From NCBI GenBank assembly GCA_030619905.1, contig JAUXAO010000001.1:183051-216170 (forward strand): 33,120 bases of DNA. Direction: 5' to 3'. Positions 19,140 to 22,905 of this stretch are shown here, in pieces. Source of the DNA: a bacterium. GTDB taxonomy: Bacteria; Patescibacteriota; Minisyncoccia; Minisyncoccales; CG1-02-41-26. A model generated the notes under the pieces. The model was not told the DNA's origin. It was given only the letters and a program-made list of their open reading frames with translations, and did not search any database. Numbering within the stretch: position 1 is the first letter of the stretch; the number at the start of each line of letters is the position of its first letter. The translations under genes were made by a program, and so were the position numbers.

Positions 19140-19355
19140 ATGAAAAAGAAGAATATTACAATTGAAGATTTAGCTAGAATGGTTCAAAAAGGATTTAGTG
19201 AAACGGCAAAAAGAAAAGAAGTCGATAGACGCTTTGATGGAGTTGACAAGCGTCTGGACAGAATTGAGAAACTTCTTATCGTTGATCACAGACAAAGAAT
19301 AGAGAAGTTGGAAATGGAAGTAAAAAATCTAAAAGAACTATTAGCAGTAAAATAA
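19140..19355 (+). CDS. Small coiled-coil protein, conserved-hypothetical style
   Basis: 'MKKKNITIEDLARMVQKGFSETAKRKEVDRRFDGVDKRLDRIEKLL...' with own consensus promoter. Confidence 0.75.
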   Translation: MKKKNITIEDLARMVQKGFSETAKRKEVDRRFDGVDKRLDRIEKLLIVDHRQRIEKLEMEVKNLKELLAVK

Positions 19356-19370
19356 ATCTGATTTTGGCAA

Positions 19371-19402
19371 ACAAAAAAGGCCTCTTTAAGAGCGCTCTTT
19401 TT
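19371..19402. terminator. Putative bidirectional terminator between convergent genes
   Basis: CAAAAAAGGC...GCTCTTTTTG stem with one mismatch, followed by T-rich tract, between + gene ending 19355 and - gene ending 19421. Confidence 0.5.
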
Positions 19403-19420
19403 GTTTTTGGTGAGGAACAA

Positions 19421-19768
19421 TTATTTTTTTACTTCTTCCATTATTTTTTTGAAAACTTCTGGTTTTTCTTTAGCTAATTGGGATAAGATTTTCCTGTCTA
19501 TCTCAATCTTTTTTTCTTTTAATTGGTGAATGAATTTATTATAAGGTAAACCAAGTTTCCGACAGGCAGCACCAATTTGAATCTGCCATAATTTTCGAAA
19601 ATCTCTCTTTTTTACTTTTCTATCTCGGTAAGCATAAGTCCAGGCTTTTTGTAAGGCCTGTTTTGCTGATTTATATTTTGATTTCCTGCCCCAGCGGAAT
19701 CCTTTGGTCTGTTTCAGGGCTTTTTTTCTTCGTTTATGAGCAGTTTTACCTCGTTTTACTCGAACCAT
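19421..19768 (-). CDS. rplT: 50S ribosomal protein L20
   Basis: 'MVRVKRGKTAHKRRKKALKQTKGFRWGRKSKYKSAKQALQKAWTYAYRDRKVKKRDFRKLWQIQIGAACR'. Confidence 0.98.
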   Translation of the reverse strand: MVRVKRGKTAHKRRKKALKQTKGFRWGRKSKYKSAKQALQKAWTYAYRDRKVKKRDFRKLWQIQIGAACRKLGLPYNKFIHQLKEKKIEIDRKILSQLAKEKPEVFKKIMEEVKK

Positions 19769-19772
19769 GTTA

Positions 19773-19955
19773 TTAAGAAATTAATTTCTTTATCTTTTTA
19801 GCCAAAGGCTTTGGCATTATCTTCCATTTTCTGATTTTACGGATTCTTTTCCCTGATTTTTTACCGCGGAAATGATTTTGACCAGCAGGTCTTCTTAAAA
19901 CCTTTCCAGTTTTTGTAATTTTAAAACGTTTTTTAAGTGATTTTCTTGTCTTCAT
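19773..19955 (-). CDS. rpmI: 50S ribosomal protein L35
   Basis: 'MKTRKSLKKRFKITKTGKVLRRPAGQNHFRGKKSGKRIRKIRK', between infC and rplT. Confidence 0.93.
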   Translation of the reverse strand: MKTRKSLKKRFKITKTGKVLRRPAGQNHFRGKKSGKRIRKIRKWKIMPKPLAKKIKKLIS

Positions 19956-20469
19956 GATTTTGAGATTGCGATACCATCATTGTTAAACCTCTGGCTTCTC
20001 GCTTAATCTCTCTTTCAATTTTAATAGTAGTTGATTTTTGTAAGATTTCTAGAAACTGATTCATCTTTTGTCTGGCAAAATCGGAAAGACGTTTTTCTCT
20101 TCCTCTTAGAACCATTTCGATTTTTATCTTGTACCCTTTCTTGAAAAATTTCTCCGCTGCTTTTACTCGAGTTTCCATATCATGAGGAGAAATATTAAAT
20201 CTTAATCTTATACTTTTTAATTCGCCGCTTTTTTGCTGTTTTTGTTTTCTTTCTTTCTTTTTTACCTGGTAAGCATACTTTCCATAGTCTCCGATTTTGC
20301 AAACCGGAGGGCTAATTTTCTGAGTCACTTGGATTAAATCAAGCCCGGCTTCCCGAGCTTTTCGTAGAGCATCTTCTAATCTAAGAACTCCCAACTGTTT
20401 TCCATCTTTGTCGATTAATCTTACTTCCCTCGCTCTTATTAGATTGTTGATAAATATTCTTTTGAACAA
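19933..20469 (-). CDS. infC: Translation initiation factor IF-3
   Basis: 'INNLIRAREVRLIDKDGKQLGVLRLEDALRKAREAGLDLIQVTQKISPPVCKIGDYGKYAYQ'; TTG start; 23-nt overlap with rpmI. Confidence 0.96.
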   Translation of the reverse strand: MFKRIFINNLIRAREVRLIDKDGKQLGVLRLEDALRKAREAGLDLIQVTQKISPPVCKIGDYGKYAYQVKKKERKQKQQKSGELKSIRLRFNISPHDMETRVKAAEKFFKKGYKIKIEMVLRGREKRLSDFARQKMNQFLEILQKSTTIKIEREIKREARGLTMMVSQSQNHEDKKIT

Positions 20470-20488
20470 GTAGATAAAAATTATTTAG

Positions 20489-20827
20489 TGGAGGTGGAGG
20501 AAATCGAACCCTCGTCCAGAAATTCTTCCGAAACAATTCTACAAGCTTAGTCTATTTTATCTTTAAGGTAAGAGAATATGAAATAGACAAAATTTCTCAT
20601 ACCCGAGCTCCATAATTTTGGTAATAATCTGGAGCAAGAATAATTACCTATCTCGATATATGGCACCTCTTACTGCTTATCGAGAATCAGCAGGGAGATG
20701 GCATTACGCTAAAGCGTAAGCGGGTTTTGAAAATAAGTTTGCACTTATTAATTCTGAGAGTTTAACGAGATTTCAGAGCTCGGCTTGCTTATTCCAGATG
20801 AAGTTTCTGTCAAAGCCTTTCACCCCC
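20489..20827 (-). ncRNA. ssrA: tmRNA (one-piece), predicted tag ANLFSKPAYALA
   Basis: 5' GGGGGUGAAAGGCUUUGACAG pairs with 3' CACCUCC(A); T-arm GAGGGTTCGATTTCCTC; tag GCA AAC TTA TTT TCA AAA CCC GCT TAC GCT TTA GCG TAA (20742 to 20704), stop inside TTACGC/GCGTAA hairpin. Confidence 0.95.
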
Positions 20828-21271
20828 TTTCATTGCTCTTTGTATTTCTCTTTCAGTTTCTCTCTTTTTAATTTGAGTTCTTTTATCAATCTTTCTTTTT
20901 CCTTTGGCAATTCCAAACTCTATCTTTATTTTTCCTTTATCAGTATACACTTTTAAGGGTATCATCGTCAAGCCTTTTTGCTTGACCTTGCCGATTAATT
21001 GTTTGATTTCGGATTTTCTTAAAAGAAGTTTTCGTGATCTTTTAGGATCATAATCACTTGGAGTATTTTTTGGCTGATAAGGAGGAACATTTGCTCCAAT
21101 TAGAAAAACCTCAGGAGGAGATTCCTTTACAATAACAAAAGAACCTCTTAAGCCCATTTTTCCGGTTTTAATTGATTTTACTTCTTGACCCTGTAAAACA
21201 ACCCCGGCCTTAAACGTTTCCAAGATAGAATAGTTAAATAATGCTTTTTTGTTTTCCAATATGACCTTCAT
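20810..21271 (-). CDS. smpB: SsrA-binding protein SmpB
   Basis: 'NKKALFNYSILETFKAGVVLQGQEVKSIKTGKMGLRGSFVIVKE...KRKIDKRTQIKKRETEREIQRAMKGGERL', adjacent to tmRNA. Confidence 0.97.
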   Translation of the reverse strand: MKVILENKKALFNYSILETFKAGVVLQGQEVKSIKTGKMGLRGSFVIVKESPPEVFLIGANVPPYQPKNTPSDYDPKRSRKLLLRKSEIKQLIGKVKQKGLTMIPLKVYTDKGKIKIEFGIAKGKRKIDKRTQIKKRETEREIQRAMKGGERL

Positions 21272-21315
21272 GCTTTAATTTTAGCAGAAAATAATGTAAA
21301 CTAAAATCATAAATT
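21272..21315. promoter_or_regulatory. 44-bp divergent smpB/argS promoter region with a -10-like TAAAAT on each strand
   Basis: TAAAAT at 21283..21278 (-) 6 nt before smpB ATG; TAAAAT at 21302..21307 (+) 8 nt before argS ATG. Confidence 0.45.
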
Positions 21316-22905
21316 ATGAAAGAGAAGATAGTTCAATTAATAAAAGAAACAATAGATCTTTTGCAAAAACAAAAAGAATTGTCTCAGTTTGAAATTCCTG
21401 AAATTTCGGTTGAATATCCGGAAAAAGAAATTCATGGTGATTATAGCACTAATATTGCCATGAACCTTGCTGGAAAATTGAAGAACAAACCAATAGAAAT
21501 AGCGAAAATCATTACTCAATCATTTAATCAATCACTTTTTGATAAAATTGATGTTATTGAACCCGGCTTTATTAATTTCTCTATTAAAAAGCAATATCTT
21601 CAGGAACAGGTTATAGAAATTTTAGATAAAAGTGAAAGGTTTGGAACATTGACTATTGGTAAAGACAAGAAAATTCAGGTTGAGTTTATTTCAGCCAATC
21701 CAACTGGTCCTTTAACATTAGGAAATGGTCGTGGGGGATTTTGTGGAGACGTTTTAGCCAATATTTTAGAAAAAGCAGGTTATGAAGTAGGAAGAGAATA
21801 CTATATTAATGATGTTGGAGAGCAGATTAAAAAATTAGGGCATTCAGTTATCGGGGACAAGGAAGCAGTTTACAAAGGAGAGTATATAAAAGAATTGAGA
21901 AAAAAGATAAAAGAGAAAGAACCAGAAGAGGCTGGTCAATTAGCGGCCAAGATTATTCTAGAAGAAATAATTAAGCCGAGCGTTAAAAAAATGGGAATTA
22001 ATTTTAATGTTTGGTTTTCAGAAAAAAGTCTATATGAAGATAAGAAAGTAGAGAAAATTCTAGATTGGCTGAAAAAAAATAAACTGGCTTATGAAAAAGA
22101 TGGAGCTCTATGGTTTAACTCAAGCAAGTTTGGCGATGATAAAGACAGAGTTTTAGTCAAAGCTGATGGCGAAAAGACTTATCTCGCTTCTGATATTGCT
22201 TATTTAAAAGATAAATTTGAAAGGGGATTTGATAATTTAATATATATCTGGGGAGCTGACCATCATGGTTATATAAAACGGATAGAAGCTGCAGCCGAGG
22301 CCTTGGGCTATCAAAAAAAACAGGTAAAAATCATTATTATGCAGTTGGTTAGACTTCTTAAAGGAGGTCGAATAGTTCGAATGTCCAAAAGAGAAGGCAC
22401 TTTTATAACTTTAGAAGAATTAGTTGATGAAGTAGGATTAGATGCAGCCAGATTCTTCTTTTTACAAAGAAGTCCAGACAGTCACTTGAATTTTGATTTA
22501 TCTTTAGCTAAAGAACAGTCTGAAAAGAATCCTGTTTATTATGTTCAATATGCTTATGCAAGAATTTGTAGCATAGTGGAGAAATTCAAAGTTCAGAATT
22601 CAAAAGTCAAAACTACGGCTCAAAACTTAAAATTATTAAATCATTTATCAGAATTAAGGTTAATTAAGCATCTTATTAAGTTTCCAGAAATTATTGAAGA
22701 TACGGTTAAAGATTATCAAATTCAAAGATTGCCTCAGTATGCGTATAAATTAGCTGGTTCTTTTCATCAGTTTTATAGAGATTGCCGTGTTTTGACAGAG
22801 GATAAAGAATTAAGTAAATCTCGTTTAGCTTTGATTTTAGCGACAAAAATTGTTTTGAAAAATACTTTGGACATAATGGGTATTTCTGCTCCAGAAAAAA
22901 TGTAA
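21316..22905 (+). CDS. argS: Arginyl-tRNA synthetase
   Basis: 'VEFISANPTGPLTLGNGRGGFCGDVLANILEKAGYEVGREYYINDVGEQ', 'MSKREGTFITLEELVDEVGLDAARFFFL'. Confidence 0.97.
   Translation: MKEKIVQLIKETIDLLQKQKELSQFEIPEISVEYPEKEIHGDYSTNIAMNLAGKLKNKPIEIAKIITQSFNQSLFDKIDVIEPGFINFSIKKQYLQEQVIEILDKSERFGTLTIGKDKKIQVEFISANPTGPLTLGNGRGGFCGDVLANILEKAGYEVGREYYINDVGEQIKKLGHSVIGDKEAVYKGEYIKELRKKIKEKEPEEAGQLAAKIILEEIIKPSVKKMGINFNVWFSEKSLYEDKKVEKILDWLKKNKLAYEKDGALWFNSSKFGDDKDRVLVKADGEKTYLASDIAYLKDKFERGFDNLIYIWGADHHGYIKRIEAAAEALGYQKKQVKIIIMQLVRLLKGGRIVRMSKREGTFITLEELVDEVGLDAARFFFLQRSPDSHLNFDLSLAKEQSEKNPVYYVQYAYARICSIVEKFKVQNSKVKTTAQNLKLLNHLSELRLIKHLIKFPEIIEDTVKDYQIQRLPQYAYKLAGSFHQFYRDCRVLTEDKELSKSRLALILATKIVLKNTLDIMGISAPEKM
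22582..22616 (+). repeat. 7-bp-period array inside argS
   Basis: AAATTCA AAGTTCA GAATTCA AAAGTCA AAACTAC, encoding KFKVQNSKVKTT. Confidence 0.8.

Follow-up and report, generated by a model that had tools for sequence, protein, structure and literature searches.

The smpB gene of this member of the Patescibacteria, a bacterium with a tiny genome, runs into the gene for tmRNA, and the smpB stop codon lies inside the 5′ end of the RNA that its product serves. What becomes of the smpB message, then, when the tmRNA is matured? RNase P generates tmRNA 5′ ends (PMC3985003), and an RNase P RNA gene is present elsewhere in the genome. The preliminary description of this locus saw smpB as a substrate of its own product. 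That idea is not new: it was published in 2014 for Carsonella, in which the smpB-ssrA overlap (credited there to Mao 2009) would let tmRNA maturation produce a non-stop smpB mRNA (Hudson, Lau, Williams 2014, PMC4131195). Working with a RefSeq data set of November 2012, the same authors found the overlap “nowhere else” (PMC4131195). The window considered here is the whole 33,120-nt stretch of DNA that was analysed, and the features of the locus are as follows.

21272 to 21315, minus strand: 44-nt gap from smpB to the divergent argS, presumed site of the smpB promoter (open reading frame list)
20810 to 21271, minus strand: smpB (open reading frame list; SmpB HMM from relatives found by PF01668)
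20966 to 20971, minus strand: -35-like hexamer TTGACG, codons L101-T102 of smpB (comparative promoter scans)
20942 to 20947, minus strand: -10-like hexamer TATACT, codons Y109-T110 of smpB, spacer 18 nt (comparative promoter scans)
20828 to 20935, minus strand: leader predicted at the 5′ end of the tmRNA precursor, about 108 nt (from the position of the -10 hexamer)
20810 to 20827, minus strand: overlap of the smpB 3′ end and the tmRNA 5′ end, 18 nt (open reading frame list, ARAGORN, Rfam)
20486 to 20827, minus strand: tmRNA gene, ssrA (RF00023, 166 bits; ARAGORN)
20704 to 20742, minus strand: tmRNA tag reading frame and stop (ARAGORN, nucleotides 86-124 of the gene as coding)

ARAGORN places the tmRNA at 20488-20827 on the minus strand, with the tag ANLFSKPAYALA, and RF00023 matches 20486-20827 from end to end (model positions 1-374, 166 bits, E 4.7e-66). 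In the acceptor stem, GGGGGUG of the 5′ strand is matched by CACCUCC at the 3′ end, one of the pairs being G-U. The gene therefore has what defines a tmRNA: a full-length covariance match, tRNA-like ends, and an Ala-type tag frame. The smpB ORF encodes 153 amino acids between its ATG and its TGA; it is recognized as SmpB by phmmer and by HMM alignment with relatives found by PF01668, and the C-terminal tail KRETEREIQRAMKGGERL is present. Its 3′ end reads AAA GGG GGT GAA AGG CTT TGA, with the RNase P cut predicted between 20828 and 20827, and its stop (20812-20810) corresponds to nucleotides 16-18 of the tmRNA. TGA is indeed a stop in this genome: read with table 11, both argS and ileS come out full-length, and TGA also closes other genes of the window. 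With the Rfam 5′ end as the anchor of the alignment, every tmRNA of the order starts with the same GGGG/GGGA motif, so the 5′ end at 20827 has not been misplaced locally. The smpB stop thus lies past the point where the mature tmRNA begins, on the same strand, an overlap of the Carsonella kind. ARAGORN, RF00023 and the ORF agree on the 18 shared nucleotides, stop included, that the preliminary description had reported, and the mature 5′ end that it assumed coincides with model position 1 of RF00023 at 20827. The codon boundary to which it drew attention is real, as the cut falls between AAA and GGG, but incidental, as in the common 8-nt form of the overlap (see below) the cut comes after the first base of a codon.

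Across relatives, promoter-like sites are enriched upstream of smpB; no clear site is named in the gap between smpB and argS in the window. A terminator between smpB and tmRNA was considered and rejected, since there is no minus-strand terminator-like site in 19300-21500. Downstream of tmRNA and on the same strand come infC, rpmI and rplT (gene names read from translations). The first start listed for the infC-like ORF directly downstream (19933-20469, minus strand) is a TTG located 17 nt past the tmRNA 3′ end; rare start codons are frequent in infC genes.

For this arrangement a model of nested transcription units can be proposed, and we consider it likely. The smpB mRNA would be initiated upstream of smpB and would reach its stop only by entering the tmRNA. 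The tmRNA would also be initiated at its own sigma70-type promoter, located within the smpB frame, and RNase P would trim the leader of about 108 nt from the resulting transcript. Acting on a read-through transcript, RNase P would leave an upstream piece, a stop-less smpB mRNA ending in ...ATG AAA. Ribosomes arriving at this end would be rescued by tmRNA-SmpB, and ANLFSKPAYALA would be added after ...RAMK, so that the tagged product would be SmpB minus its last five residues. The overlap itself would be opportunistic. Three points make it a sound inference that processing of read-through transcripts would leave a stop-less smpB mRNA: the full smpB transcript includes the start of the tmRNA, the genome encodes RNase P RNA, and tmRNA 5′ ends are products of RNase P. 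The earlier proposal that tmRNA maturation removes the smpB stop is to this extent borne out by geometry, because any transcript of the whole ORF carries the tmRNA 5′ end. A feedback loop, if operating, would lower SmpB output only.

The overlap could also be free of consequences, with smpB translated before the tmRNA folds or is cut, or with the smpB piece degraded at once, and no stalled ribosomes in either case. The acceptor stem that RNase P requires is complete only with its 3′ strand, about 330 nt further along, so leading ribosomes could terminate first. Ribosomes that follow would nevertheless stall once the message is cut, and while we see this outcome as possible, we lean against it.

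The spread of the overlap was established from whole-genome RF00023 searches in the family and the order, after which the loci were fetched. Many of the sampled genomes are fragmented assemblies, and 105 same-strand smpB-tmRNA pairs were obtained. One locus (L031, G018 contig 188, 1501-1581) has a second, short tmRNA-like match besides its normal tmRNA (64.5 bits over 81 nt); this may be a fragment that is permuted or of foreign origin. Sorted by spacing, 43 pairs overlap, 26 have a gap of 0-10 nt, 8 of 11-24 nt, and 28 of at least 25 nt; these counts take in related genomes and ignore kinship. The overlap in the order is beyond chance, with 43 of 105 pairs overlapping and 37 of the 43 measuring exactly 8 nt. 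In these the smpB stop is formed by tmRNA nucleotides 6-8 (GGGGxTGA), and the proteins mostly end in RG. The 18-nt form occurs only in the window and in L023 among the 105 pairs; other lengths are 17 nt (L040 and L083), 21 nt (L019) and 30 nt (L105). The preliminary description named persistence of the overlap in relatives as a check: it is found in 20 of the order's 37 families, but it is absent in 14 of the 23 sampled members of the window genome's own family, and its register varies within one genus (g10, with 8, 8 and 21 nt). Overlap and gap alternate within families, and overlaps are rare in a sample of the wider phylum, where two measure 1 nt and one measures 12 nt. Gained and lost within families, the overlap is therefore not a strictly conserved device. 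A single conserved ancestral overlap state was also rejected, since about 30 changes would be needed on a poorly resolved SmpB tree.

How overlaps arise can be approached through the reading frame in which smpB enters the tmRNA. Entry in the frame of the TGA at nucleotides 6-8 gives an 8-nt overlap in 67 of the 105 tmRNAs, and the other two frames give median overlaps of 39 and 55 nt. The first frame is the one used by 39 of the 43 overlaps. The TGA is present in 37 of 39 overlapping pairs, versus 29 of 62 non-overlapping ones (Fisher p 3e-7, kinship ignored, in a comparison that is partly built into the definition). The base before the tmRNA is A or C, which makes an Arg codon, in 34 of the 37 8-nt overlaps versus 30 of 62 non-overlapping pairs (Fisher p 8e-6, kinship ignored). 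These biases point to translation of the shared codons and use of the tmRNA-borne stop. The overlap is best seen as opportunistic: at crowded junctions, smpB would lose its own stop and borrow one that the start of the tmRNA already contains. In most cases this would be the TGA at nucleotides 6-8 and, in the window, the TGA at nucleotides 16-18 in a different frame. The 18-nt form fits a small indel that would have moved the frame, so that the next in-frame stop, in UUUGAC, came into use. This UUUGAC (20809-20814, minus strand) stands where most tmRNAs read UUCGAC, and it is common in family f1 with or without overlap. That it arose specially to supply the smpB TGA was rejected, because it is common in non-overlapping family members too, for example L009 and L010.

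The preliminary description went further and suggested that the overlap would be a feedback device or a forced choice between the two products. The overlap would then be selected as negative feedback or as an either/or switch, in which both products come from one transcript, maturation to tmRNA destroys the smpB message, and the two partners are balanced. Overlap geometry and recurrence in so many families speak for such a switch. A like logic has been proposed for selB and tRNA-Sec (Mukai 2021, PMC8124441) and for Carsonella (PMC4131195), and it has been shown in E. coli for arfA, a rescue gene whose control through a non-stop mRNA is proven (PMC3989581). However, the overlap is lost or shifted both within the family and within one genus, which does not suit a conserved device; the 26 pairs lying 0-10 nt apart retain the smpB stop; and the tmRNA likely has a separate promoter. 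We regard a selected switch as improbable.

The known systems resemble the present one in part and differ from it in part. In Carsonella smpB also runs into the tmRNA gene and a non-stop smpB mRNA is predicted, but this is an insect endosymbiont with a tail-less SmpB and apparently random C-terminal extensions, and the overlap was called not widespread (PMC4131195). Here the hosts are Patescibacteria with normal SmpB tails, an 8-nt form is preferred in an order, and a nested promoter is predicted. Where selC lies in selB, an RNA gene likewise overlaps the gene of its partner protein, processing is predicted to yield a non-stop mRNA, and the overlap is conserved but non-essential, which we count as a likeness; the whole tRNA, however, sits within the ORF, the partners are other ones, the genomes are mostly large, and the case is a model only (PMC8124441). 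The arfA mRNA loses its stop to an endonuclease and then becomes a target of trans-translation, as experiments have shown, but the cut is made in an RNase III hairpin rather than by tmRNA maturation, and the factor controlled is a backup, not SmpB (PMC3989581). In the compact genomes of animal mitochondria, as far as Doublet 2015 is reported in PMC8124441, 5′ RNA processing at tRNA/protein-gene overlaps cuts the upstream frame, with neither tmRNA nor SmpB involved. In a literature search covering few subscription papers, we found no report of smpB-tmRNA overlaps in Patescibacteria, none of a promoter inside smpB, and nothing on trans-translation in Patescibacteria. What looked in 2014 like a Carsonella oddity recurs across a Patescibacteria order with normal SmpB tails, making the feedback idea testable in many lineages.

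The principal new finding is the promoter-like element inside smpB. In the window it consists of TTGACG (20971-20966), an 18-nt spacer and TATACT (20947-20942); a promoter scan of the window by itself gives chance numbers. No promoter-like site was found in overlapping genomes within 120 nt upstream of the tmRNA 5′ end, and with the scan widened to 260 nt the element appears in relatives at about -120 from the tmRNA. Across 77 overlapping or tight pairs, 91 of the 101 matches (at least 9/12) fall 100-160 nt upstream of the tmRNA (expectation about 6), and a site of at least 10/12 is present in 76 of the 77. The hexamers coincide with smpB codons L101-T102 (TTG ACN) and Y109-T110 (TAT NNT), always 18 nt apart. 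When the tmRNA is less than 25 nt away (90 linked smpB genes), TTG is found in 88 and TATNNT in 89, versus 5 and 6 of 32 unlinked Patescibacteria genes and 3 and 4 of 31 genes from other phyla; related genomes are again included and kinship is ignored. Only two independent linked/unlinked pairs are supported, and both go in the expected direction. The third base of L101 is G in 98% of linked genes (33% expected), and that of codon 110 is T in 90 of 90 (49% expected), for T, N, S, D and I codons alike. These are the two strongest third-base constraints in linked genes, and neither is in the top ten in unlinked ones. A pattern search of 247 genomes of the order, dozens of them beyond the fetched loci, found the TTGAC form in 132 genomes and the synonymous TTAAC form in 20; just one of the latter reads as smpB, and about 15 of the former look unrelated to it, judging from the matches. 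It is highly improbable that the element is a mere protein-coding constraint (L-T ... Y-T), despite its place in a conserved SmpB stretch and the chance-level scan of the window, given a T-ending codon 110 under five different residues, a TTG at L101 that unlinked genes do not share, and the near absence of TTAAC.

The element thus combines -35 and -10 hexamers, a spacer within 16-18 nt and conservation beyond coding need, as is typical of sigma70-type promoters. The tmRNA most likely has its own promoter nested in smpB, with a transcript start predicted about 7 nt past the -10 hexamer, near 20935, so that the leader would span roughly 108 nt. Streptomyces is described as making most of its tmRNA from a promoter of its own (PMC2635970). 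SmpB and tmRNA would then not be forced alternatives, because the tmRNA likely has its own promoter, and the either/or choice from one transcript that had been put forward is left unsupported, since the conserved element would allow tmRNA to be made without smpB mRNA. An independent tmRNA promoter inside smpB, together with smpB mRNA ending elsewhere, had been named beforehand as evidence against the proposal, and the element provides part of this. If true, the nested promoter would explain how tmRNA is supplied without the smpB message despite the shared gene ends, and it constrains, at the level of nucleotides, a part of the smpB coding sequence that is conserved. An order-wide regime can also be imagined, in which tmRNA maturation routinely strips the smpB stop, the nested promoter determines how much tmRNA is made independently relative to the coupled form, and SmpB is held down by its partner RNA; this we find doubtful.

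The full element is missing in three linked genes (L039, L042 and L114). Genomes with a broken element tend to carry a promoter-like site between the two genes. In family f10, the internal element is broken in L052, L076 and L078, and a TTGACC/T-17-TATATT site (10/12) lies in the smpB-tmRNA gap; in two f10 genomes that have no gap, the internal element is intact. In most genomes of family f33, TTGAC-TATNNT is not seen inside smpB ahead of a GGGG start. The one tmRNA sampled from that family, L114, begins with GGGAGTG, and in its smpB the site is broken, reading TTT TCC.
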